64,000 nucleotides of DNA. It comes from Aestuariirhabdus litorea (lineage in GTDB: Bacteria > Pseudomonadota > Gammaproteobacteria > Pseudomonadales > Aestuariirhabdaceae). The stretch is taken from positions 558,001 through 622,000 of the forward strand of contig NZ_QWEZ01000002.1 in assembly GCF_003864255.1 (NCBI RefSeq). The letters are read 5' to 3'. The translations under genes and the position numbers were made by a program. Below are positions 18,512 to 50,157 of this stretch, piece after piece; the first letter of the stretch is position 1; each line of letters opens with the position of its first letter. The notes beneath the pieces were generated by a model. The model searched no databases and was not told the DNA's origin. It worked only from the letters and a program-made list of their open reading frames with translations.

Positions 18512-18898
18512 ATGGAAGATAATTTCGAGAGCTTGAAGGTGATGGTGATCGATGACAGTAAAACCATCCGCCGCACAGCTGAAACTCTGCTCAAAAAGGT
18601 TGGTTGCACGGTTATTACGGCGATCGATGGTTTTGATGCCTTGGCCAAGATAGCGGACACCCGCCCGAATATCATTTTTGTTGACATCATGATGCCGCGG
18701 CTCGATGGCTACCAGACCTGTGCCCTGATCAAGAACAACAGTGCTTTTAAATCCACTCCGGTGATCATGCTCTCCAGTAAGGATGGCCTGTTTGACAAGG
18801 CCAAGGGGCGAATTGTGGGGTCGGACCAGTACCTGACCAAACCGTTTAGCAAGGAAGAGCTGCTCGGGGCTATTCGCGCACACGTGCCGGCTGAATAG
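18512..18898 (+). CDS. pilG: Twitching motility response regulator PilG
   Basis: Stand-alone receiver of 128 residues, one of two CheY-like outputs of the Pil-Chp pathway; in Pseudomonas PilG promotes pilus extension and cAMP synthesis. Acidic pocket DD is in VMVIDDSKTIRR, the phosphoacceptor Asp58 is in FVDIMMPRLDG, the conserved Ser/Thr is in MLSSKDG and the Lys is in YLTKPF. First gene of an unbroken pilG-H-I-J-K-chpA-B-C run. Confidence 0.97.
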   Translation: MEDNFESLKVMVIDDSKTIRRTAETLLKKVGCTVITAIDGFDALAKIADTRPNIIFVDIMMPRLDGYQTCALIKNNSAFKSTPVIMLSSKDGLFDKAKGRIVGSDQYLTKPFSKEELLGAIRAHVPAE

Positions 18899-18959
18899 CA
18901 CTAACTAATCGAAAACGGCCGTACCGGCCGCTATTGAACGCGAAGTAGATGGGGGAGCA

Positions 18960-19322
18960 ATGGCTCGAGTATTGATCGTTGACGATTCGCCAACGGAAAC
19001 GTTGAAGCTGCAAGGTATGCTGGAAAAGAATGGCCATGAGGTACTCAAGGCTGATAACGGTGCGGACGGTGTTGCGCTCGCCAAGGACCAGAAGCCGGAT
19101 GCGGTGTTGATGGATATTGTGATGCCGGGCCTGAACGGCTTCCAGGCAACTCGCCAGCTCAGTAAGGATCCGGCGACCTCCCATATCCCTGTGATCATCG
19201 TCACCACCAAGGATCAGGAAACTGACAAGGTGTGGGGGCGTCGCCAGGGAGCCAAGGATTACCTCACCAAGCCGATCGACGAATCCGTGCTAATGAAGAC
19301 GTTGCAAAGCGTTCTCTCCTGA
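18960..19322 (+). CDS. pilH: Twitching motility response regulator PilH
   Basis: Second CheY-like receiver of the Pil-Chp system, 120 residues. VLIVDDSPTET carries the acidic pair, Asp52 in LMDIVMPGLNG is the phosphoacceptor, IVTTKDQETD holds the switch Thr and YLTKPID the conserved Lys. The extra WGRRQGAKDY loop is typical of PilH. In Pseudomonas PilH opposes PilG and has been proposed to act as a phosphate sink or to favour retraction. Confidence 0.97.
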   Translation: MARVLIVDDSPTETLKLQGMLEKNGHEVLKADNGADGVALAKDQKPDAVLMDIVMPGLNGFQATRQLSKDPATSHIPVIIVTTKDQETDKVWGRRQGAKDYLTKPIDESVLMKTLQSVLS

Positions 19323-19342
19323 CCGGAGCTACGGGTAGCGGC

Positions 19343-19894
19343 ATGACATATACGCAAGGGGAAGACCCGACTCCGTTTGAACGACTCAAGGAGATGGCGG
19401 CTCTAAGCCACCGGCATGCCCGTGGTTTGCCTCTTCAGGTTGAGTTGAAAACCTACTGGAGCGGTATCGGCTTTCGCTTGGGGGGGCAGCGCTACGTGGC
19501 TCCTCTGGGGGAGGTGGCTGAAATTCTGACGGTGCCCGGTTATACCCGCCTTCCTGGCGTAAAAAACTGGGTAAAGGGTATTGCCAATGTCCGAGGCCGA
19601 CTGTTGCCGGTGATGGATCTGGGGGACTTTCTGGGGCAGCCCCTCAGTGCCCGGCGAACCCACCGGCGTATCTTGGTGGTGGACCACGAAGAGGTGTTCA
19701 GTGGGCTGGTGGTGGACGAAGTGATGGGGATGCAGCACTTCGTTTCAGACAGCTTCGACCCCGATCTGCCCGAAGACCTCTCGCCTGCGATCAAGCCCTT
19801 TATCAACGGTGTCTACGAGCGCGAGTATCAATGGCAGGTGTTCAGTTTATTTGCCCTGGCACAGCACCCTGATTTTATGCAGGTGGCTGTCTAG
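19343..19894 (+). CDS. pilI: CheW-like adaptor PilI
   Basis: CheW-domain adaptor of 183 residues linking the receptor PilJ with the kinase ChpA. After about 40 residues the CheW fold starts at GIGFRLGGQRYVAPLGEVAEIL; VKGIANVRGRLLPVMDLGDFLG is the hallmark loop. Start ATG 19343 lies 20 bases after the pilH stop; a longer reading frame into pilH has no support. Confidence 0.95.
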   Translation: MTYTQGEDPTPFERLKEMAALSHRHARGLPLQVELKTYWSGIGFRLGGQRYVAPLGEVAEILTVPGYTRLPGVKNWVKGIANVRGRLLPVMDLGDFLGQPLSARRTHRRILVVDHEEVFSGLVVDEVMGMQHFVSDSFDPDLPEDLSPAIKPFINGVYEREYQWQVFSLFALAQHPDFMQVAV

Positions 19895-19955: not shown

Positions 19956-22100
19956 ATGAAGGCGACTAATTCAGGTGTTCAAACCAACCGGCTCTCAGCG
20001 ATCATGTTCGTTGTCCTGGTCCTCTCCCTGGTGGGGATGATTGGCAACTTCTGGTACGTCAACCAGCAGGCGGACTACGACAAGGAGTTTATCGCGCACG
20101 CGGGGGAGATGCGGGTACTTTCCCAGCAGATCGCCAAAAACGCCCTGGAGGCGGCCGGTGGTAACAAGGAAGCGTTTGAGCTGCTGCATGAAGCGCGGGA
20201 CAAGTTTCAAACCCACTATGACATGATGCAAATGGGCGCCACCAGCATGCACGAGGCTGATGAACACGGGGGCGAGGGCGACCAACACGGCAGCACGGAG
20301 AACATGGCGAAGGTCGCCAAGGCGGCCAGCCATCTGATGGCCGAGATGAACCACCCCATGCTGGCCGAGATGGGCTCTGCCCGTGCCGATGAGCAGCTGG
20401 CTGAGCTGACCAAAACCTGGAATCGCACCAAGAAGGGGGCCGATGCCATTCTCGCCAGTGAGGAGACGGTGCTCTCTCTCCATGAGGTAGCGGCCGCGCT
20501 GGCGGAAACCATCCCCCAACTGCAGGTGGAATACGATGAGGTGGTGGAGATCCTGCTGGAAAACGGTGCCCCGGCTGACCAGGTCGCCATTGCCCAACGC
20601 CAGTCCTGGCTGGCGGAGCGGATTGTGGGGAGTGTCAACCGAGTGCTCGAGGGTACCGAGGACTCGGTAATGGCCGCGGACAGCTTTGGGCGTGATGCCG
20701 GTCTGTTTGGGCGAGTGCTGAACGGTATGATCGAGGGTAACCTGGCCATGCGTATCAGCCAGGTCAGCGATAGCGAGGCGCTCGACCGCCTGAACGAGAT
20801 CGCCGAGCTGTTTGAGTTTGTAAACGGAAGCGTGGATGAGATCCTGGAGACCTCTCCCGAGCTGTTCCAGGTGCGTGAAGCCTCAGACCAGATCTTCGAG
20901 TTGACTCAGCAGTTGCTGCTGGAGACCTCCACCCTGGCCGAAATTTTTGAAACCATGGAGGATGAGCGCTTCTGGTCCTCCGAGACCGCGGTACTCTTCG
21001 GTTTGATCGCGGTGGCGGCCATTGTCCTGATCGGTGTCAGCATGGTGGGCAATACGCGTAAGCGTCTGGAAGAGACAGCCAGCCAGAACGAGTCCAACCA
21101 GGCGGCGATCATGCGACTGCTTGACGAGCTGGCCGACCTGGCGGATGGTGACCTGACCGTGTCGGCGACCGTAACCGAGGACTTCACCGGTGCGATTGCA
21201 GACTCCATCAACTACTCCATCGAGCAGCTGCGTGCACTGGTAACCACCATCAACGAAACGGCGGTACAGGTGGCCTCGGCTGCCCAGGAGACCCAGGCAA
21301 CTGCGATGCACCTGGCGGAAGCCTCCGAGCACCAGGCGCAGGAAATTGCCGGTGCTTCTGCCGCAGTAAACGAGATGGCGGTCTCCATCGACCAGGTATC
21401 GGCAAACGCCTCCGAGTCCGCATCGGTAGCGGAGCGGTCGGTATCCATTGCAAACAAGGGCAACGAGGTGGTGCAAAACACCATCCTCGGTATGGACACC
21501 ATCCGTGAGCAGATCCAGGACACCTCCAAGCGGATCAAGCGACTGGGTGAGTCTTCCCAGGAGATCGGGGATATCGTATCGCTGATCAACGACATCGCCG
21601 ACCAGACCAACATTCTGGCATTGAACGCCGCGATTCAGGCGTCCATGGCCGGTGACGCGGGTCGAGGCTTCGCGGTAGTAGCGGACGAGGTACAGCGATT
21701 GGCGGAGCGTTCCTCTGCGGCAACCAAGCAGATCGAGGCGCTGGTTAAGACGATCCAGGCGGATACCAACGAGGCGGTTATCTCCATGGAGCACACCACC
21801 TCTGAGGTGGTCAAGGGTGCGCACCTTGCACAGGATGCGGGTGTGGCCCTGGAGGAGATCGAGAAGGTATCCCAGAACCTTGCGGAACTGATCCAGAACA
21901 TCTCCAACGCTGCACGCCAGCAGGCCTCCTCCGCCGGCCATATCTCCAACACCATGAACGTTATCCAGGAGATTACCTCCCAGACCTCTGCCGGTACCAC
22001 CGCGACTGCGAACTCGATCGGTAACCTGGCTGAGATGGCGTCTGAAATGCACCAGTCCGTCGCAGGCTTTAAGCTCCCAGAAACCGAGTCGATAGGATAA
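19956..22100 (+). CDS. pilJ: Type IV pilus chemoreceptor PilJ
   Basis: Membrane chemoreceptor of 714 residues for surface or pilus sensing. A first membrane helix lies at about residues 14-34, a periplasmic region of about 300 residues contains two PilJ-type helical modules, and a second helix lies at about 345-365. A HAMP-like segment ([17 protein letters not shown]) and the signalling hairpin follow, whose tip is [20 protein letters not shown] then [15 protein letters not shown] His/Asp/Glu-rich insertion ([14 protein letters not shown], about residue 95) in the first periplasmic module could bind metal and is unusual. Few C-terminal residues follow the coiled coil, so no CheR-tether peptide is obvious. 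Confidence 0.95.
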
Positions 22101-22111
22101 GTCGCTGAGCG

Positions 22112-23002
22112 ATGACGTTGGCGGCAGGCCAGGACGCAGGTCCCAGGACGATGATGACGAACAAGTGGTCGATGCAACCACTGCCGGAGATGGACGAGAG
22201 CCAGTTCGAGCAGTGGCAAGCTCTGCTCGAAAGCCGCACTGGCATGCGGGTTACCGAGCAGCGTAAAACGTTTCTGCAGACCAGTGTGGGTATGCGGATG
22301 CGTGAGCTGGGGTTGAGTGACTACCAGAACTATTACAACCGGGTGAGCCAGCATCCCCCGGGAGGCATGGAGTGGACCCTGCTGGTGGATCGCCTGACGG
22401 TGCAGGAAACCAGCTTTTTCCGCCACCAGGCTTCCTTCGACCGGGTACAGCGCTTTCTGGCAGAGCGTTCAGACAAGGGCGGTACCATCGAGATCTGGTC
22501 GGTGGGTTGCTCCACTGGAGAGGAGCCCTACTCCCTCGCGATGCTGGCCCAGGAGACTCTGCAGGACAGTGGTTGCTATTTTGGGATCAGTGCCACCGAC
22601 ATCAGTGCCCCCGCGCTGGCCAAGGCCCGGCAAGGGATCTATTCAGACCGTAAGGTTGAGGCGCTGCCGAGGGAGCGGGCAGAACAATTTTTTACTCCGC
22701 TTGAGAAGGGACGTTATCAGGTGGTGAGCCAGTTGCGGGATCGCGTCTGCTTCTCGCAGGTGAATGTCCTCGAACTGAGCAAAACCCCGATGCATGGCAT
22801 GGACCTGATCTACTGCCAGAATCTGCTGATCTACTTCCGTCGCTGGCGACGCAAGGAGATTCTGAACCGGCTTGCTGAACGCCTGGCACCGGGGGGGCTT
22901 CTGGTGGTAGGGCTGGGCGAGGTGGTGGATTGGAGCCATCCCGACCTGGAGCGTGATCGAGACCCGGCAACGTTGGCGTTTCGCAAACGTGTCAGTGGGT
23001 AA
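22112..23002 (+). CDS. pilK: CheR-type chemoreceptor methyltransferase PilK
   Basis: SAM-dependent glutamate methyltransferase of 296 residues predicted to methylate PilJ. It has the CheR N-terminal helical domain (FEQWQALLESRTGMRV), the substrate-loop sequence VQETSFFRHQASF, the SAM-binding motif IEIWSVGCSTGEEPYSLAM and the second motif DLIYCQNLLIYFRRW. ATG 22112 or 22151 could be the start; both have only modest ribosome sites. It is 11 bases after pilJ and 22 before chpA. Confidence 0.95.
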   Translation: MTLAAGQDAGPRTMMTNKWSMQPLPEMDESQFEQWQALLESRTGMRVTEQRKTFLQTSVGMRMRELGLSDYQNYYNRVSQHPPGGMEWTLLVDRLTVQETSFFRHQASFDRVQRFLAERSDKGGTIEIWSVGCSTGEEPYSLAMLAQETLQDSGCYFGISATDISAPALAKARQGIYSDRKVEALPRERAEQFFTPLEKGRYQVVSQLRDRVCFSQVNVLELSKTPMHGMDLIYCQNLLIYFRRWRRKEILNRLAERLAPGGLLVVGLGEVVDWSHPDLERDRDPATLAFRKRVSG

Positions 23003-23024: not shown

Positions 23025-26000
23025 ATGGCTGATCACCACGACTACGTAGCCCTCGACTGGGTTAAGGGTGAGATTCAGGAGACCCTGACGCAGGCGCGTC
23101 AGGCACTCGAGTCCTATGTTGAGAACCCCGAGGACAGCACCCGGATCCGCTTCTGCCTTAACTACATCCATCAGGTGCATGGCACCCTGCAGATGGTTGA
23201 GTTTTATGGCGCCGCCCTGCTGGCGGAGGAGATGGAGGTCCTGGCCCAGGCCATCATGAATGGCCAGGTCAGTAATCCCGACGAAGCCTACCAGGTACTG
23301 ATGCAGGCGATACTGCAGCTGCCCGCCTATCTGGAGCGGGTGCAGGCCGGGCGCCGTGACCTGCCGGTCATCCTCATGCCGGTATTGAATGACATGCGCG
23401 CGGCCCGCGGTGGAAGCCTGCTGTCGGAAACCTCACTGTTCAAACCCAACCTGAGCCACCGGAACCCAAAACTTCCAATTGGTGCCCTTAAGCGTTTCAG
23501 CGGCGACAATTTCACCGCCTTCATCGGCAAGCTACGCCAGATGTACCAGTTTGCCCTGGTGGGGTTGCTACGGGACCAGAACACAGCCGAGCACCTCGGC
23601 TACATGACCAAGGTCTTTGGCCGTCTCGAGCAGCTGTTGCTGAAAACGCCGGTAGGCCAGCTGTGGTGGGTCTGTGTGGGCATTATTGATGGACTCGCCA
23701 GCGGCGCGATCCCCATGAGCACCAGTATCCGTCACCTGCTGCGCCAGGTCGACGGGGAGCTGCGCCGCATCATGAAGGGGGGCGCGGAGGCGCTTAACCA
23801 GCCGGCCCCCGATGAACTGCTGAAAAACCTCCTCTACTATGTCGCCAAGGCAGAGGATGAGAGCCTGCGCATTCGCGAGATCAAGGACAAGTTTGACCTC
23901 GACGACGCCCTCCCCGACGAGGCCACCGTGGATGAGCAGCGCCAGTTGATGGCAGGCCCCGATAAGGAGGCGATCGGCTCGGTCGTAGCAGCGCTCACCG
24001 AAGAGCTGGTGTCGGTGAAAGACGCACTCGACCTCTTTGTCCGTACTGAAAATCGTGACCTGGGAGAGCTCTCCCAGCAATTACCATTGTTGAAACAGAT
24101 CTCCGACACCATGGCGGTCATGGGGCTGGGGGCGCCGCGCAAGGTGTTGCAGGAGCAGCTGGAAAGCCTGCAAGAGATCGTGGAAGGCGATCGTCATCTG
24201 GATGATGCGGTGCTGATGGATATCGCCGGATCATTGCTCTTTGTTGAAGCCACCCTGTCGGGAATGGCCGGGGATAGTGCTAATGCCCAAGGGGGAAGTA
24301 GCGGGGATATGCCCCCTACCGAGCTCAGCGATGTACACCGGGTGGTGGTGCGTGAGGCGCGTAATGGGCTGGAGCAGGCCAAGGACTCCATCGTCCAGTT
24401 CATCGGCTCGAAGTGGGACCACAGTGAGCTGGAGGATGTCCCGCAGATTCTGGATACCGTCCGCGGCGGACTGGCAATGATTCCGCTGGAGCGTGCGGCG
24501 AAGCAGCTGGGCGCCTGTGCCGGATTTATTCGGGACTCGCTGATCGCGACCAAAGAGGTTCCCGAGTGGCGAGTGCTGGATACGCTGGCCGATGTGATTG
24601 CCAGTATCGAATACTACCTTGAGCGCTTGTCCGAAGATCAGGCCGAGCAGGCGGATCTGCTGCTTGATGTGGCTGACGAGAGCCTGGCAATACTGGGCTG
24701 CGAGGTGGCGCGCCCGCCGCTTGATGAGACGGCTATCGCCGATCAGGCGTTGGAGGTAACTTCGCCGCCCCTGGAGGCAGTTGAAGAGGATTCAGAACCT
24801 GTCGAAGATACGCTGGCGCCGGAGCCAGCCGGCGTAACTGAAGCCCCTTCGGCAGGGCACGAGGTGACACCGGTTGAAGCCGACCAGGCCGAGCAGCCTG
24901 ATCCGGCAGCGGCGGAAACAGTGGCAGCTGACCGGGATACGCCCGATGCCACCGAAGAGCCGACTCCTCCGCTGGCCAGCGTCGATGAAGAGGAGGACAT
25001 GATCGATGACGAGGTCATCGAGATCTTCATTGAGGAGGCCGAAGAGGTTCACGAAACCATTTCAGAATTCTTCCCCAAGTGGCGTAGCAATCCGGCTGAC
25101 TCCGGATCACTGACGGAGGTAAGGCGAGCCTTCCATACCCTGAAGGGCAGTGGGCGCATGGTGGGGGCCAATGTGGTAGGTGAGCTGGCCTGGTCGATTG
25201 AAAACATGTTGAACCGGGTGATCGACCATACGATCACCACCAGCGAGCCGCTGTTTGAGCTGATTGAGGGCGTGCGCCAGCTGATTCCCCAGCTGATGAA
25301 GGATTTTGAGCAAAAGTCGCAGCAGGAGACCGACCAGGTACGCCGGCTTATGGCGCAGGCCGAGGCCTACTCCAAAGGCCAGCCCTGGGAGCCGGCGCCA
25401 CAGCAGGCAGAGCATGAAGAGGTGTTCGAGGTGGTTACCGATGAGGTGATCAAGCCTTTGGACCTGGAAGGTAGCGAAGCCGAAGAGGCCGAGGTGGTCG
25501 AGGTAGAGCCCGCTACCAGCCTTGAGGATGACGATTCCGATGCCGCCTTGTTGGAGATCTTTAGCGGGGAAGCCAACGCTCACCTGCAGGAGGCCGATGC
25601 CTTTGTTGCCTTGTACAACAGCAAACAACACCCCCTGACCATCAGTGAGGAGCTGCAGCGGGCACTGCATACCCTCAAGGGGAGCGCCCATATGGCGGGT
25701 ATCACCCCGGTGGCGGAGGTAGTAACCCCCCTTGAGAAATTGATCAAGGAGTTGCGTGGAAACCTGATCAAGGCGGACCGCGAGGTGGTCGATCTGTTGG
25801 CCAGGGGCTCGGCCATTGTCCATGAAGCACTGACTCGCCTGCGGGTAGATGAAACCCTGGAGATTCCCCAGGCGGAGGAGTATTGCGCGGCCTTGCTGGA
25901 ACTGCATGATCGCTATCTCGCGGCCAAGCGGGAAGCCGATGCAGCGAGCGGGCGCGATACCCAGATGTTGACCGTCTTCCTGGCCGAAGGGATGCAACTG

Positions 26001-29000
26001 CTGCTCGATGTAGAGGCCTGGCTGCCGGGGTGGATGGAGCATTGCCGGCCCGACAATCAGTACGAAGCCCTGTGCAAGGAGTTGGATACCCTGGCTCGCG
26101 GCTCATTGATGGCGGACCTGGCCCCTATATCGGATCTGGCTGAGGGGCTCAAGGCCACCTACAGCGGACTGGTGGGGCGGCACTTGATGGCGGGTGAGGA
26201 AGCCCGTACGTTGCTGGTGGAGGCTCACGAAGCCCTGCTCTTCATGCTCGACAGCATGGCTGCCCAGCAGGAGGTCGCACCACGCCAGGACCTGATTCAG
26301 CGGTTACGCGCTTTGCCAGAGACGTTATTGCTGGAGACAGAGGCGCCAACTTCCGTCGTTGAAGTCGATGACGAAGCGCTTGAGGGGCTGGATCAGGAGG
26401 AGACGGAAGAGATCCTGCTGGACAGTATTGCGCCGCTCGAAGCCCTCCAGCAACAGTATGTCGGTGAGCTGCCGGAAGCCGCGGCGGAGGAAGCGGCGGA
26501 GCTGCCACTAGCGGAAATCGACGAGGAGGCACTTGACAGCCCCCTGCCGGAGATTACGCTGGAAGCCGAAGCCGAAGCCGAAGCCGAAGCCGAAGCCGAA
26601 GCCGAAGCCGAAGCCGAAGCCGAAGCCGAAGCCGAAGCCGAAGCCGAAGCCGAAGCCGAAGCCGAAGCCGAAGCCGAAGCCGAAGCCGAAGCCGAGCAGT
26701 GGCAGGCGGTGGACGTCGATCCTGAAATGGTCGAAATCTTCCTCGAAGAAGCGGTCGACATCATGGATCGAGCGGCGGGCTCACTGCAGAACTGGCTGGA
26801 AGGCAGCACCCGCAAGGATGAGCTGGACCAGCTGCAACGGGACCTCCATACCCTCAAAGGGGGCGCCCGGATGGCAGGCATAGCCGCCATCGGAGATCTT
26901 AGCCATGAGCTGGAGTTCCTTTACGAAGGCTTGGGCAACGGTCGTTATGAACCCTCCACGGAGCTGGGTGAGCTGATCCAGGCGTGCCATGATCGCCTTG
27001 CGGTGCAGATTGAGGACGTTGGCAGTAGTGGCGGCTGTGTGCCGGCCCAGGCCTTGATCGGAGCGATCAGCCGCTACCGGGCCAACCCCGATGCGGGGGT
27101 GCAGATGGAGGCAGTGGGCAAGCCAGCGTCCCCCGGCACCCCCGCACCAACCGAACCGGAGCCCAGTCAGGTGGCTGCCGTTCCGGCCGTCGAGGAAGCC
27201 GAAGAGCTGGAATTCGATCGGCTGGACCTGAGCGAGATCGATCCCGATATTCTGGAGATTTTCCTTGAAGAGGCGGGTGACCTGCAGGAGGGGATTGAAC
27301 AGAGCTGCGAAGCCTGGAGCAAGGCCCCCCAGGACGCCGAAGCCGCTGCCGAGTTGATGCGCCAGCTGCACACCCTCAAGGGGGGCGCGCGCATGGCCTC
27401 CATTACCCACCTGGGTAACTATACCCACGATTTTGAGATGCTGGTGACCCGTGCCCAGCAGGACCTCGCCAACCTGCCAGCGGATCTCTTTGATGAAGTG
27501 GAGGTGCGCCAGGATAAGCTATTCAAACACCTCGAAAATATCCGTCGCCAGGTGCAGGGCGGTGCAGCTGAGCCCGCTCCCGGCCCAGCAGCACCCGAAA
27601 GCGGCGGCGCGTCGGACAGCACCGAGAAGAGCGCAGAAGTTGTCCCTTTTGCGCCGCGCGAAACCGACAGTAGCAGTGAAGTGGCCCCCGCTGTGGTGGG
27701 GGCTGCCGAGGCGCTAAAACAGCCACGACGGATGCCGCAGGAGATGGTGAAAATCTCTGCGGATGTGCTGGAGGAGCTGGTCAACCTGGCGGGTGAAACC
27801 AGTATCTCCCGGGGCCGTGTTGAGCAGCAGGTTAATGATTTCATCTACTCGCTTGATGACATGCACGCCACCATCAACCGGGTCCGCGAGCAGCTACGCC
27901 GTCTCGATATCGAAACCCAGACCCAGATTATCTCCCGCCACGAGGCAGAGTCGGGGGTGCGAGAGCTGGAGTTTGACCCGCTGGAGATGGACCAGTACTC
28001 CGAGCTGGCCCAGCTGTCGCGCTCGCTGGTGGAGTCGGCCACTGACTTGATGGACCTCAAGGATGGCCTGACCGACAAGGCTCGGGATGCGGAAACCCTG
28101 CTGTTGCAGCAGGCACGGATCAACACCGAGCTGCAAGAGGGGCTCATGCACACCCGCATGGTGCCCTTTAACCGCATGATGCCTCGACTGCGCCGGATTG
28201 TACGCCAGGTATCGGGTGAGTTGGGCAAGCGCGTCGACTTGCAGGTGGTCAACGCAGACGGCGAGATGGACCGTACCGTGATGGAGCGGATGGTGGCACC
28301 GCTGGAACATATGCTGCGCAACGCCATCGATCACGGCATAGAAGCCGACCCCGCTGACCGAAAGGCGGCGGGAAAGGATGTAAAAGGGACCATCAAGATC
28401 GCCTTCTCCCGCGAAGGGGGCGATGTCGTCTTGCGAGTCAGCGACGACGGTCGGGGGGTCAACCTGGAGGCGGTGCGTAACAAGGCCATCGAACGCGGCC
28501 TGATGGACCGCAACTCCAGCCTGACCGACCACGAAGTGATGCAGTTTATCCTGCAGGCAGGCTTCTCCACGGCCAAGCAGGTAACCCAGATCTCCGGAAG
28601 GGGCGTGGGCATGGATGTGGTGCACTCCGAGATCAAGCAGCTCGGCGGCAATGTCACCATCCATTCGGCCCAGGGTAAAGGCTCCACCTTTGTGGTGCGC
28701 TTGCCCTTTACCGTATCGGTCAACCGCGCCCTGATGGTGTACATGGGGGATGATCTCTACGCCATCCCGCTCAATACCATTGAGGGGGTGTTGCGAATCA
28801 GCCCTTACGAGTTGGAAGCCTATTACCAGGATCCCAGTCTCGAGTTTGAATACGCGGGCCAGGGCTATCAGGTGAAGTATCTGGGTGAGGTGATGCAGCA
28901 GCGTCCCCAGCCCTCCATGGAGGGGGTCACGACTCCGCTGCCGGTGTTGCTGACCCGCGGAGCGGAGCACTCGGTGGCGCTGCAGGTGGACTCCCTCGCC

Positions 29001-29606
29001 GGTAGCCGTGAAATCGTGGTTAAGTCGATTGGTCCCCAGTTTGCCGGCGTTGACGGCGTGTCGGGGGCCACCATCCTGGGGGATGGCCGGGTAGTGATCA
29101 TCCTCGATCTGGTAGCGATGATCCGTTCCAGCTTTGCCCACGACGCATTGCCGGTGGGAGTGACCATCGACATCGAGGCGGACAGCGAAGCCGAACAGGC
29201 CGCGGCCGAAGAGGAGGCTCGACAGCCACAGGTGATGGTGGTCGATGACTCCGTGACCGTGCGTAAGGTTACCTCTCGCCTGCTGGAGCGACAGGGCTTT
29301 GATGTGATCCTGGCCAAGGATGGGGTGGACGCCGTCTCCCAGCTGCAGGACAAGAAGCCTGACATCATACTGCTGGATATCGAGATGCCGCGGATGGACG
29401 GCTTCGAAGTGGCCAGTACCATTAAAAATGACAGCCGCTTGAAGAGTATTCCCATCATAATGATCACCTCCCGTACCGGTGAGAAGCACCGCGAGCGCGC
29501 CTTCGCCATCGGTGTCGAGGAGTATCTGGGTAAGCCCTTCCAGGAGGCCTTGCTGCTGGAAACCATTAATCAACTGTTGAATGCGGATGAGCGACAGCAA
29601 CACTAA
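23025..29606 (+). CDS. chpA: Pil-Chp hybrid histidine kinase ChpA with multiple Hpt domains
   Basis: CheA-like kinase of 2193 residues at the core of the Pil-Chp system. Canonical Hpt sites (HTLKGS/G) are at His704, His882, His1275 and His1449. A divergent Hpt-like site (QVHGTL) is at His52, and at least two further Hpt-like helical modules lack the His (about 330-420 and 960-1080). The dimerisation helix starts near 1570, and the HATPase has its N-box HMLRNAIDHG near 1765 and SGRGVGMD near 1858. A CheW domain spans about 1900-2040, and a C-terminal receiver has phosphoacceptor Asp2118. A run of 22 Ala-Glu dipeptides (residues 1181-1224) separates the second and third canonical Hpt. Pseudomonas ChpA is of similar design and somewhat longer. 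Confidence 0.96.
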   Translation: MADHHDYVALDWVKGEIQETLTQARQALESYVENPEDSTRIRFCLNYIHQVHGTLQMVEFYGAALLAEEMEVLAQAIMNGQVSNPDEAYQVLMQAILQLPAYLERVQAGRRDLPVILMPVLNDMRAARGGSLLSETSLFKPNLSHRNPKLPIGALKRFSGDNFTAFIGKLRQMYQFALVGLLRDQNTAEHLGYMTKVFGRLEQLLLKTPVGQLWWVCVGIIDGLASGAIPMSTSIRHLLRQVDGELRRIMKGGAEALNQPAPDELLKNLLYYVAKAEDESLRIREIKDKFDLDDALPDEATVDEQRQLMAGPDKEAIGSVVAALTEELVSVKDALDLFVRTENRDLGELSQQLPLLKQISDTMAVMGLGAPRKVLQEQLESLQEIVEGDRHLDDAVLMDIAGSLLFVEATLSGMAGDSANAQGGSSGDMPPTELSDVHRVVVREARNGLEQAKDSIVQFIGSKWDHSELEDVPQILDTVRGGLAMIPLERAAKQLGACAGFIRDSLIATKEVPEWRVLDTLADVIASIEYYLERLSEDQAEQADLLLDVADESLAILGCEVARPPLDETAIADQALEVTSPPLEAVEEDSEPVEDTLAPEPAGVTEAPSAGHEVTPVEADQAEQPDPAAAETVAADRDTPDATEEPTPPLASVDEEEDMIDDEVIEIFIEEAEEVHETISEFFPKWRSNPADSGSLTEVRRAFHTLKGSGRMVGANVVGELAWSIENMLNRVIDHTITTSEPLFELIEGVRQLIPQLMKDFEQKSQQETDQVRRLMAQAEAYSKGQPWEPAPQQAEHEEVFEVVTDEVIKPLDLEGSEAEEAEVVEVEPATSLEDDDSDAALLEIFSGEANAHLQEADAFVALYNSKQHPLTISEELQRALHTLKGSAHMAGITPVAEVVTPLEKLIKELRGNLIKADREVVDLLARGSAIVHEALTRLRVDETLEIPQAEEYCAALLELHDRYLAAKREADAASGRDTQMLTVFLAEGMQLLLDVEAWLPGWMEHCRPDNQYEALCKELDTLARGSLMADLAPISDLAEGLKATYSGLVGRHLMAGEEARTLLVEAHEALLFMLDSMAAQQEVAPRQDLIQRLRALPETLLLETEAPTSVVEVDDEALEGLDQEETEEILLDSIAPLEALQQQYVGELPEAAAEEAAELPLAEIDEEALDSPLPEITLEAEAEAEAEAEAEAEAEAEAEAEAEAEAEAEAEAEAEAEAEAEAEQWQAVDVDPEMVEIFLEEAVDIMDRAAGSLQNWLEGSTRKDELDQLQRDLHTLKGGARMAGIAAIGDLSHELEFLYEGLGNGRYEPSTELGELIQACHDRLAVQIEDVGSSGGCVPAQALIGAISRYRANPDAGVQMEAVGKPASPGTPAPTEPEPSQVAAVPAVEEAEELEFDRLDLSEIDPDILEIFLEEAGDLQEGIEQSCEAWSKAPQDAEAAAELMRQLHTLKGGARMASITHLGNYTHDFEMLVTRAQQDLANLPADLFDEVEVRQDKLFKHLENIRRQVQGGAAEPAPGPAAPESGGASDSTEKSAEVVPFAPRETDSSSEVAPAVVGAAEALKQPRRMPQEMVKISADVLEELVNLAGETSISRGRVEQQVNDFIYSLDDMHATINRVREQLRRLDIETQTQIISRHEAESGVRELEFDPLEMDQYSELAQLSRSLVESATDLMDLKDGLTDKARDAETLLLQQARINTELQEGLMHTRMVPFNRMMPRLRRIVRQVSGELGKRVDLQVVNADGEMDRTVMERMVAPLEHMLRNAIDHGIEADPADRKAAGKDVKGTIKIAFSREGGDVVLRVSDDGRGVNLEAVRNKAIERGLMDRNSSLTDHEVMQFILQAGFSTAKQVTQISGRGVGMDVVHSEIKQLGGNVTIHSAQGKGSTFVVRLPFTVSVNRALMVYMGDDLYAIPLNTIEGVLRISPYELEAYYQDPSLEFEYAGQGYQVKYLGEVMQQRPQPSMEGVTTPLPVLLTRGAEHSVALQVDSLAGSREIVVKSIGPQFAGVDGVSGATILGDGRVVIILDLVAMIRSSFAHDALPVGVTIDIEADSEAEQAAAEEEARQPQVMVVDDSVTVRKVTSRLLERQGFDVILAKDGVDAVSQLQDKKPDIILLDIEMPRMDGFEVASTIKNDSRLKSIPIIMITSRTGEKHRERAFAIGVEEYLGKPFQEALLLETINQLLNADERQQH
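26565..26696 (+). repeat. Hexanucleotide tandem repeat (GCCGAA)22 inside chpA
   Basis: Twenty-one perfect copies of GCCGAA (26565-26690) plus a last copy GCCGAG. In the chpA frame it encodes (Ala-Glu)22, a likely rigid, highly acidic helical linker between two Hpt domains. The unit is six bases, so copy-number change by slippage would alter linker length without breaking the frame. Near-perfect DNA identity, despite synonymous Ala and Glu codons being available, implies recent expansion. Confidence 0.97.
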
Positions 29607-30612
29607 AGCGGTCGTAGGCATCATTGCAGACACGGTCCTTCAGCAACACCTGGTGGGTACCCTGCTGGCGGATGAGGAGATACTGGTGCCGGTGAACACC
29701 TCCCCGGCCCAGTTCACTACTGAAGCCTTCAACACCCCGGTTGATCTTTGGTACGTGGACCTGACCCTGGATGAAGGCTTTGATGACTTCCTTGACCTCA
29801 TTCTGGAAGCGGTCGACGTACCGGTCCTGATCGGTGATGGCCAGGCACCTACCCGTAACAGCGATGAGTATCCTCGCTGGCGCCGCAGCTTTCTCGGTAA
29901 GCTAAACCAGCAGCTTGCCCTGGCTCGGGCATCGACAGCGGGTGAAGCACCCCTGTCGGTGGGACGACCCAAACTGCCACCCTTGCCGTTACCGGCGGTG
30001 CTCTCCCAGCTGGAGAATACCCCCGTACCTCAATCCGTCTGGGTGATTGGTGCCTCTTTGGGGGGACCCGGGGTGGTAAAGGAGTTCCTGGATGCCCTGC
30101 CACGGGGGCTACCGGTTGCCTTTGTATACGCCCAGCATATTGATGCGAGCTTCCAACAGGTTCTTGCCGATACCCTGGGGCGGCACAGTGCCTTTGATGT
30201 GGTCACCGCCGCTGAGGGTGCCCCGCTCGGTTATGGCAAGGTGATTCTGGCGCCGGTTGAGCAGGAGGTTCGTATCAGTGCACAGGGGCGAATCGAAGCC
30301 ACCGGCAAACACTGGAGTGGGCCCTACCAGCCCAATATCGGCGAGGTGATGATGGGGGTGCTGCGACGCTTCAAGGAGCATTGTGGCGCCATCATATTTA
30401 GCGGCATGGGCGAGGATGGGGTGCAGGCCAGCCTGGAATACCAGCGCTGTGGTGCCCAGGTGTGGGCGCAGGACGCTGCCAGCTGCGCAAGCAGTACCAT
30501 GCCCGATGCCATCGCCCACGACGGGTACTGCAGCTACCGGGGCACTCCCCGTGAGCTGGCCCAGCGATTGGTGGAACGATTAGCACAGGAGGTCAGCCCC
30601 AAGCTTGGCTGA
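29581..30612 (+). CDS. chpB: Receptor methylesterase ChpB
   Basis: CheB-type glutamate methylesterase of 343 residues (ATG 29587 is a close alternative) that would demethylate PilJ. The catalytic triad is recognisable: Ser in WVIGASLGGPG (near 158), His in YAQHID and Asp in FSGMGEDGV. The N-terminal 120 residues look like a degenerate receiver: WYVDLTLDEG stands where the phosphoacceptor strand would be, but there is no clear acidic DD pair. The gene overlaps the 3' end of chpA by 26 bases, so translation is probably coupled. Confidence 0.93.
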   Translation: MRMSDSNTKAVVGIIADTVLQQHLVGTLLADEEILVPVNTSPAQFTTEAFNTPVDLWYVDLTLDEGFDDFLDLILEAVDVPVLIGDGQAPTRNSDEYPRWRRSFLGKLNQQLALARASTAGEAPLSVGRPKLPPLPLPAVLSQLENTPVPQSVWVIGASLGGPGVVKEFLDALPRGLPVAFVYAQHIDASFQQVLADTLGRHSAFDVVTAAEGAPLGYGKVILAPVEQEVRISAQGRIEATGKHWSGPYQPNIGEVMMGVLRRFKEHCGAIIFSGMGEDGVQASLEYQRCGAQVWAQDAASCASSTMPDAIAHDGYCSYRGTPRELAQRLVERLAQEVSPKLG

Positions 30613-30634
30613 CCCGGCAGGGGAGCAGAAAGAG

Positions 30635-31096
30635 ATGAGTGAAAAAACGGAAGAGGCGATCTCCGGACTGATGATTCCGTTGCGTGAGGCCCAGCTGCTG
30701 GTGCCGAACGTGACGGTGGCGGAGCTGGTGGGCTATGAGCCGCCCCAGCAGGTGGAAGATAGGCCCGAATGGTATCTGGGGCATATCATCTGGCGGGATC
30801 AGAATATTCCCCTCGTCAGCTTTGAAGGGGCCAATGGCGACCCCTTCGACCCCAGCCAGCCCTCCCAGAGGACGGTGGTCCTGAACGGTGTCAGCGGTCA
30901 GGAGGCGCTGCCTTTTTATGCGGTCGTGGTGGAGGGGATTCCCCACGCGGTGCGGGTAGGGCCCGAGGAGGCGGTACCCCAGGATCGTGAGCTGGGCGCC
31001 TGTGGCGCAGTGATGGTGCACCTCAGTGGTGAAGAGGCGCTGATTCCCGATCTCGTCAAGTTGGAAACCATGATTCTGGCTGCCCGTCAGGGCTAG
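30635..31096 (+). CDS. chpC: CheW-like protein ChpC
   Basis: Second CheW-type adaptor of the Pil-Chp cluster, 153 residues: MIPLREAQLLVPNVTVAELVGY opens the fold and WYLGHIIWRDQNIPLVSFE is the CheW hallmark loop. The start is ATG 30635, with GGGGAGCAG 9 bases upstream; a TTG at 30605 is less likely. It ends the pil-chp run: chpD and chpE, which follow chpC in Pseudomonas aeruginosa, are absent and the convergent rsmE comes next. Confidence 0.92.
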   Translation: MSEKTEEAISGLMIPLREAQLLVPNVTVAELVGYEPPQQVEDRPEWYLGHIIWRDQNIPLVSFEGANGDPFDPSQPSQRTVVLNGVSGQEALPFYAVVVEGIPHAVRVGPEEAVPQDRELGACGAVMVHLSGEEALIPDLVKLETMILAARQG

Positions 31097-49520: not shown

Positions 49521-49557
49521 GGTGGCGTTCAGGAAAGGGTAACCAGAGGAGAGCATG

Positions 49558-50157
49558 ATGAAGATGGGAATAAAAGGCTGGGCAGTGCTGGGGATGGCCA
49601 TCTCCCTGTTGACCGCTCCTGCGATCGCTAAAGAGGAGAAAAAGTCGAAAGGCTATCAGCAGGGCTATGAGGAGCGTGATCGTCAAGAGGCCGAGGAACG
49701 CTATCGCAAGAAGGGTGAGAAAGATCGTACGCGTAAGGATTATGACGATGATGACCGCGACGATAAAAAAGACAAGCGCAAACGTTACGACGATGATGAG
49801 GATCGCGACGATAAAAAGGACAAGCGCAAACGTTACGACGACGATGATGATCGCGACGATAAAAAGGACAAACGCAAGCGTTACGACGACGATGAGTCAA
49901 GTAGCCGGGGTAAGAGCAGCCACAGCCAGCTGCCTCCCGGATTACAGAAAAAAGTGGCTCGGGGCGAGCCGTTGCCTCCTGGCTGGCAAAAGAAACTCAA
50001 TGTGGGGGGAACCCTGCCGGCGGATCTTTACGAGCGAGGAACCGTGATCAAGCGTGATGAGGACAAGGGGGTTTCGTCGGTCGAGATCGAAAACACCGTG
50101 GTGGACGTCCTCGACACAACCCGAGAGATTATCGGTATCCTTAATCCCCAGAAATAG
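49558..50157 (+). CDS. Exported hypothetical protein with Asp/Lys/Arg tandem repeats
   Basis: Protein of 199 residues with a signal peptide (GWAVLGMAISLLTAPAIAKE). A highly charged region (residues about 30-115) contains three 16-residue repeats of the form DRDDKKDKRKRYDDDE, and a C-terminal segment has LPPGLQKKVARGEPLPPGWQKKL, a Pro-Pro-Gly-x-x-Lys-Lys pattern seen in some RcnB-like or uncharacterised periplasmic proteins. No function can be assigned; polyanion or metal binding is conceivable. The start at 49558 is chosen over 49555 for its 6-base spacing from AGGAG. Confidence 0.8.
   Translation: MKMGIKGWAVLGMAISLLTAPAIAKEEKKSKGYQQGYEERDRQEAEERYRKKGEKDRTRKDYDDDDRDDKKDKRKRYDDDEDRDDKKDKRKRYDDDDDRDDKKDKRKRYDDDESSSRGKSSHSQLPPGLQKKVARGEPLPPGWQKKLNVGGTLPADLYERGTVIKRDEDKGVSSVEIENTVVDVLDTTREIIGILNPQK
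49753..49896 (+). repeat. Three tandem 48-bp repeats in the charged-repeat gene
   Basis: Units 49753-49800, 49801-49848 and 49849-49896 differ at only a few third positions. Each encodes 16 residues with the core DDKKDKRKRYDDD. The near-identity at DNA level indicates recent duplication and possible copy-number variation; frame is preserved. Confidence 0.93.

Follow-up and report, generated by a model that had tools for sequence, protein, structure and literature searches.

A six-base coding repeat in an inter-Hpt linker of ChpA, with its recurrence and length variation in related genes

ChpA is the kinase that steers pilus-driven surface movement. In Aestuariirhabdus litorea, the chpA reading frame contains a long array of one six-base unit, which raises the question of whether such an array adjusts the kinase or accumulates where the protein can bear it. 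The window analysed here is a stretch of 64,000 nucleotides (contig NZ_QWEZ01000002.1, positions 558,001 to 622,000), and positions below count from its first letter.

The array and its host linker

The array, read directly from the sequence, is composed of 21 GCCGAA units followed by one GCCGAG at 26565..26696 (+). A preliminary description of this DNA had called it a perfect (GCCGAA)22; the repeat is real and in frame, with its last unit a variant. TRF delimits a perfect period-6 tract over 26562-26695 (134 bp, 22.3 copies, 100% match, score 268), and because the DNA repeat is perfect, the array is probably young. In a 400-kb sample of the genome, arrays with units of up to 12 bp score 78 at most, and the 3.66-Mb genome contains no other GCCGAA array of at least four units. 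The array reads as (AE)22, corresponding to ChpA residues 1181-1224, and is directly preceded by Glu1180. Its 6-bp unit is a multiple of three inside the coding frame, as expected of an in-frame intragenic VNTR, and the earlier statement that six-base units preserve the frame holds within the 2193-aa ORF. Two extra ORFs over the array, encoding KPKP (+) and SASA (-), are mechanical by-products of the GCCGAA repeat.

Two further tandem arrays were noticed. The same genome carries a second six-base array of ~8 GCAGAA units (L255 ~1497-1550; G000:C1 ~1740595-1740645), which has no long ORF in the AE frame and is apparently non-coding. The second tandem array of the window lies at 49744-49896 (period 48, 3.2 copies, 91% match), in frame in the ORF 49555-50157 (+). 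The ORF product is a small protein whose N-terminus is signal-like, and the array contributes charged repeats of the DDDDRDDKKDKRKRYD type to it.

The host gene (23025..29606, +) encodes a multi-Hpt CheA-type kinase of 2193 residues, in which Pfam recognizes five Hpt stretches, HATPase_c, CheW, and receiver domains. Multiple N-terminal Hpt domains, as in ChpA and the Tfp-class CheA proteins whose architecture is described in a passage of PMC10542144, are combined with HATPase and CheW-like domains and a C-terminal receiver. The neighbouring genes, all on the plus strand, are of the Pil-Chp type. The pilG-, pilH-, and pilI-like genes occupy 18512..19894 (18512-18898, 18960-19322, and a CheW-type ORF ending at 19894), assigned by eye from ORFs and motifs alone. 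They are followed by a pilJ-like receptor (19956-22100; Pfam PilJ and MCPsignal) and CheR/PilK (22112-23002; Pfam CheR), while CheB/ChpB (29581-30612; Pfam CheB_methylest) and CheW/ChpC (30605-31096; Pfam CheW) lie downstream of the kinase gene. Since both domains and neighbour genes match, the protein is ChpA of a Pil-Chp cluster, in agreement with the identity first proposed for it. It resembles P. aeruginosa ChpA in its multi-Hpt N-terminus, the presence of some His-less Hpts, the HATPase, CheW, and C-terminal receiver domains, and a pilGHIJK-chpABC-type neighbourhood, but has four His-bearing Hpts instead of six.

A custom HMM made of ChpA Hpts, which defines the Hpt bounds used here, gives seven Hpt-like matches, four of them with the HTLKG motif. 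The distal group contains the Hpts with His704 (24987..25289, +) and His882 (25521..25823, +), both supported by the HMM match and the HTLKG motif, and a degenerate, His-less Hpt-like domain (residues ~972-1072; 25938..26240, +), found by the HMM, in which ELDTLA replaces HTLKG. Directly after it comes the host linker (residues ~1073-1226; 26241..26702, +), delimited by the Hpt HMM bounds and composition, with 154 residues, 34% D+E, and 2% K+R. The linker is directly followed by the first kinase-proximal Hpt, with His1275 (26703..27002, +; Pfam, HTLKG motif, and HMM), and then by the second, with His1449 (27225..27524, +; HTLKG motif and HMM). The array therefore has the His-less domain on its N-terminal side and the two kinase-proximal Hpts on its C-terminal side. 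Its earlier placing between Hpt modules 882 and 1275 correctly named an inter-Hpt linker; these numbers are the His residues of HTLKG motifs, and the His-less domain also lies between them.

According to a review (PMC5812489), autophosphorylation in P. aeruginosa takes place on Hpt4-6, and PilG and PilH receive their phosphoryl groups mainly from Hpt2 and Hpt3. Mapped by domain order, the host linker may correspond to the boundary between the PilG/PilH donor Hpts and the kinase-phosphorylated Hpts. The reason for the many Hpt domains of ChpA is referred to as an open question in surface sensing in a passage of PMC12632253.

Repeat arrays in other ChpA genes

Within the genus of the window, one species has the AE array and two others lack it. 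The array site is free of repeats in one congener (G001), whose next Hpt is 81% identical, and another (G002) carries (EVA)7, encoded by a different 9-bp unit, in the same ChpA linker. The preliminary description had named one pattern as speaking against its reading, the same copy number with diverged codons in all relatives; the congeners depart from that pattern.

Across the order, about a dozen of 59 ChpA genes contain pure or near-pure coding repeats detected by TRF, namely (EA), (PE), (VAE), (VE), (TSE), and (AG), and most ChpA sampled carry no array. The high-copy arrays have unit lengths that are multiples of three, and most repeats of the ChpA linkers contain Glu. Many arrays sit just ahead of the last one or two Hpts; strict conservation of the position is rejected, with arrays found in at least three ChpA linkers. 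In a kinase-core tree of 55 rows, composed of most of the 59 order ChpA and added array-bearing genomes after removal of three badly anchored rows, 11 changes are needed to explain the label 'repeat array', nine or more of them forced by well-supported branches, and its clustering is no greater than in shuffled labels. The arrays have therefore been gained or lost many times in ChpA. A single ancestral origin is unsupported by this tree.

One ChpA linker of the order has an unusual reading frame. In L103 (G049:C1:3205500-3218500), the reading frame of the last inter-Hpt linker (ChpA ~1380-1635, ~250 aa) is shifted and gives a sequence rich in Ser/Thr/Asn/Pro, with 2% D+E; another frame gives an acidic PE/ELD-rich sequence, and the domains downstream are in the expected frame. 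The shift likely reflects two compensating indels, or sequencing errors.

Searches for the array unit itself point to ChpA as well. Arrays of at least six GCCGAA units are found in 14 of 195 order genomes, and in six of these (G000, G004, G021, G040, G058, and G181, the last with 56 units) the array lies in ChpA. A degenerate AE pattern adds one more ChpA, with GCAGAA units (G010). Outside ChpA, the order arrays fall in ScpB-like proteins of three species from a single genus, in the tails of a TetR-like and an MFS protein, and in unrelated proteins, all named by sequence. Over ~85,000 species, arrays of at least 12 units were found at 58 loci, of which 22 match ChpA by BLAST; the search pattern, (GAAGCC)12 with a left boundary and counted once per array, catches one boundary phase only, so that this proportion may be biased, whereas the order-level count is unbiased. 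The 22 loci come from Pseudomonas, Stutzerimonas, Marinobacter, Marinobacterium, Simiduia, Marinicella, Stenotrophomonas, Deefgea, and others. In Pseudomonadaceae, such arrays are present in 75 of 298 genomes, and ChpA accounts for 25 of the 30 loci read. ChpA is matched more often than any other recognised gene in these array sets.

A large part of this hot spot is expected, because ChpA is a very large acidic-linker target. With its array set aside, ChpA accounts for ~9.5% of the coding windows in the genome that are acidic and of low complexity, by a rough window count extrapolated from 400 kb of one genome. Against this share, six or more of 14 has P = 0.001 and 22 of 58 has P = 6e-9, with array loci that are not all independent; against the ChpA share of genome length, six of 14 has P = 7e-14. 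The several-fold excess beyond target size may have a further cause, either selection for the linker or mutability.

In one rival reading the array is a selected rheostat, a contingency locus in which slippage would adjust how far the donor Hpts lie from the kinase side, or the effective concentration of one for the other, and so yield heritable variation in surface sensing. The recurrence of arrays above the ChpA share of acidic linker agrees with such a role, as does the placing of many arrays directly ahead of the final one or two Hpts, which by P. aeruginosa analogy is the boundary between donor (Hpt2/3) and kinase-phosphorylated (4-6) domains (a passage of PMC5812489). The lack of an array in most order ChpA sampled and the occupation of other ChpA linkers argue against it.

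Array length among near-identical relatives

In one genus of Pseudomonadaceae, the loci of 29 of 30 genomes are ChpA. Five genomes (L280, L281, L282, L272, and L285) carry 6.7, 8.5, 12.5, 20.0, and 20.7 units between 300-bp flanks that are 97-99% identical, as counted from assemblies, in which some other arrays lie at contig ends or beside Ns and long counts are uncertain. The instability of length first suspected for this array is thus seen in relatives, with 6.7 and 20.7 units at 99.0% identical flanks. Pairs from a second genus, whose flanks are 89-96% identical, have 8.8 vs 15.0 and 9.7 vs 11.7 units. Copy number of ChpA arrays hence varies between close relatives in Pseudomonadaceae. At the level of assembled sequence, these comparisons show that ChpA array length outruns point substitution, as a hypervariable in-frame VNTR would. 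Such rapid change is also what a tunable locus would display. The ChpA linker is a natural length-variation experiment, since array lengths in near-identical relatives lie as much as 14 units (28 residues) apart, and the allele series is ready-made for asking whether the spacing of Hpt groups matters. The most extreme ChpA arrays, in L165 (G181) and L246 (G265), have 56.5 and 58 GAAGCC units and add ~113-116 residues to the linker.

The copy number in the window could also be an assembly artefact, with the array collapsed or inflated. The arrays of relatives often coincide with contig ends or adjoin runs of N, and assemblies of several relatives break or carry Ns at such arrays; the length of ChpA and the surrounding assembly can accordingly be unreliable in short-read genomes. 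The array described here lies inside a 1.43-Mb contig, its flanks and reading frame are intact, and its type recurs in many independent assemblies, which renders an artefact extremely improbable.

We consider it probable that the array is an in-frame coding VNTR that grew by slippage from GCC-GAA codons in a tolerant, acidic, and probably disordered ChpA spacer, and that it drifts in length. GCC-GAA codon seeds in the acidic low-complexity spacer, which connects the distal Hpts (His704, His882, and the His-less copy) with the kinase-proximal ones (His1275 and His1449), would expand by replication slippage. Each step would add or remove two residues (Ala-Glu) with frame and linker character unchanged, for which reason the arrays would be tolerated in the spacer, arise repeatedly in ChpA, and drift fast in length. 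Directly observed are where the array lies and in which frame, its recurrence, its turnover between congeners, and the length change among near-identical relatives. To these we add by inference slippage as the mutational route, disorder of the linker, an almost neutral effect, and the reading from domain order of which Hpts donate and which accept. A DNA hairpin was considered as a promoter of slippage and rejected, with both strands folding worse than all 200 shuffles.

Linker geometry and known repeat systems

The preliminary description had proposed the array as a possible rheostat for phosphotransfer geometry. In a polymer estimate of the tether (R = 0.55 nm x N^0.6), the linker measures 9.2 nm without the array and 11.3 nm with it, about the same for coil or helix. 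The estimated effective concentration with the array is ~0.56 of the array-free value, and 56 units would lower it to 0.28. A mild tuning effect of array length is thus physically possible in this model. The linker of the array-free congener is longer (215 vs 154 aa) and equally acidic (D+E 0.33 vs 0.34), and the estimate for 22 units is ~2-fold, so fine tuning becomes speculative. Despite the precedent of E. coli tolA, whose copy number tunes a phenotype (PMC3477136), a selected rheostat appears unlikely to us. The same doubt applies to the broader view of ChpA inter-Hpt linkers as a widespread contingency locus, in which slippage of AE- or PE-coding microsatellites would continually retune the coupling between kinase-side and output-side Hpts; if true, populations would carry heritable variation in surface-sensing gain.

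Alternatively, the AE tract could have a specific structural role, in which a rigid helix or an acidic patch for docking would set the position of the two Hpt groups. AlphaFold2, given the sequence alone, predicts one helix spanning residues 1179-1224 (mean pLDDT per block mostly 81-86), preceded by a low-confidence linker. This prediction matches the straight helix envisaged earlier in its outline, and the 23 Glu have no Lys/Arg to pair with. The tract, composed of Ala and Glu only, lacks the i,i+4 Glu-Lys/Arg pairs of a charged single alpha-helix (SAH). In addition, AlphaFold2 in our judgement over-calls helices in Ala/Glu-rich tracts. For both reasons the modelled helix is weak support for an AE rod. 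Glu does occur in most repeats of these linkers, as a structural role might require; the AE tract is absent in congeners, the PE, VAE, or VE repeats elsewhere would form a different structure, and the L103/G049 linker, in its shifted frame, has just 2% D+E. A dedicated structural role is therefore quite improbable, and slippage in a tolerant spacer remains the favoured reading.

Coding repeats that vary in number within the frame and thereby tune a protein have precedents, the best being E. coli tolA, in which contraction of the in-frame repeats was measured and is RecA-dependent, and stress tolerance was shown to follow copy number (PMC3477136). ChpA shares with tolA coding repeats that stay in frame and shift fast in copy number without breaking the gene; RecA-dependent contraction and phenotype tuning, in contrast, are known for tolA and not for chpA. 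For a pure 6-bp microsatellite such as that of chpA, slippage would be more likely than a tolA-type route. A literature search for chpA repeats within open-access sources returned nothing, and no repeat array came up in the passages found of the ChpA papers searched. ChpA as a recurrent array hot spot across families appears unreported.

The GAAGCC unit is likewise found in acidic, probably disordered segments of other proteins named by sequence, including the C-terminus of ScpB, the N-terminus of FtsY, the FtsK linker, and FimV; ChpA is matched more often than each of them. ScpB-like arrays recur at or near the C-terminus (L122, L123, L124; L179, L202, L221, L260), and those of two congeners have 14.5 vs 9.3 units with flanks 90-95% identical. 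In several Cupriavidus species, linkers of FtsK-like proteins, so named by sequence, carry GAAGCC arrays of 19-31 units (L169, L193, L198, L205).
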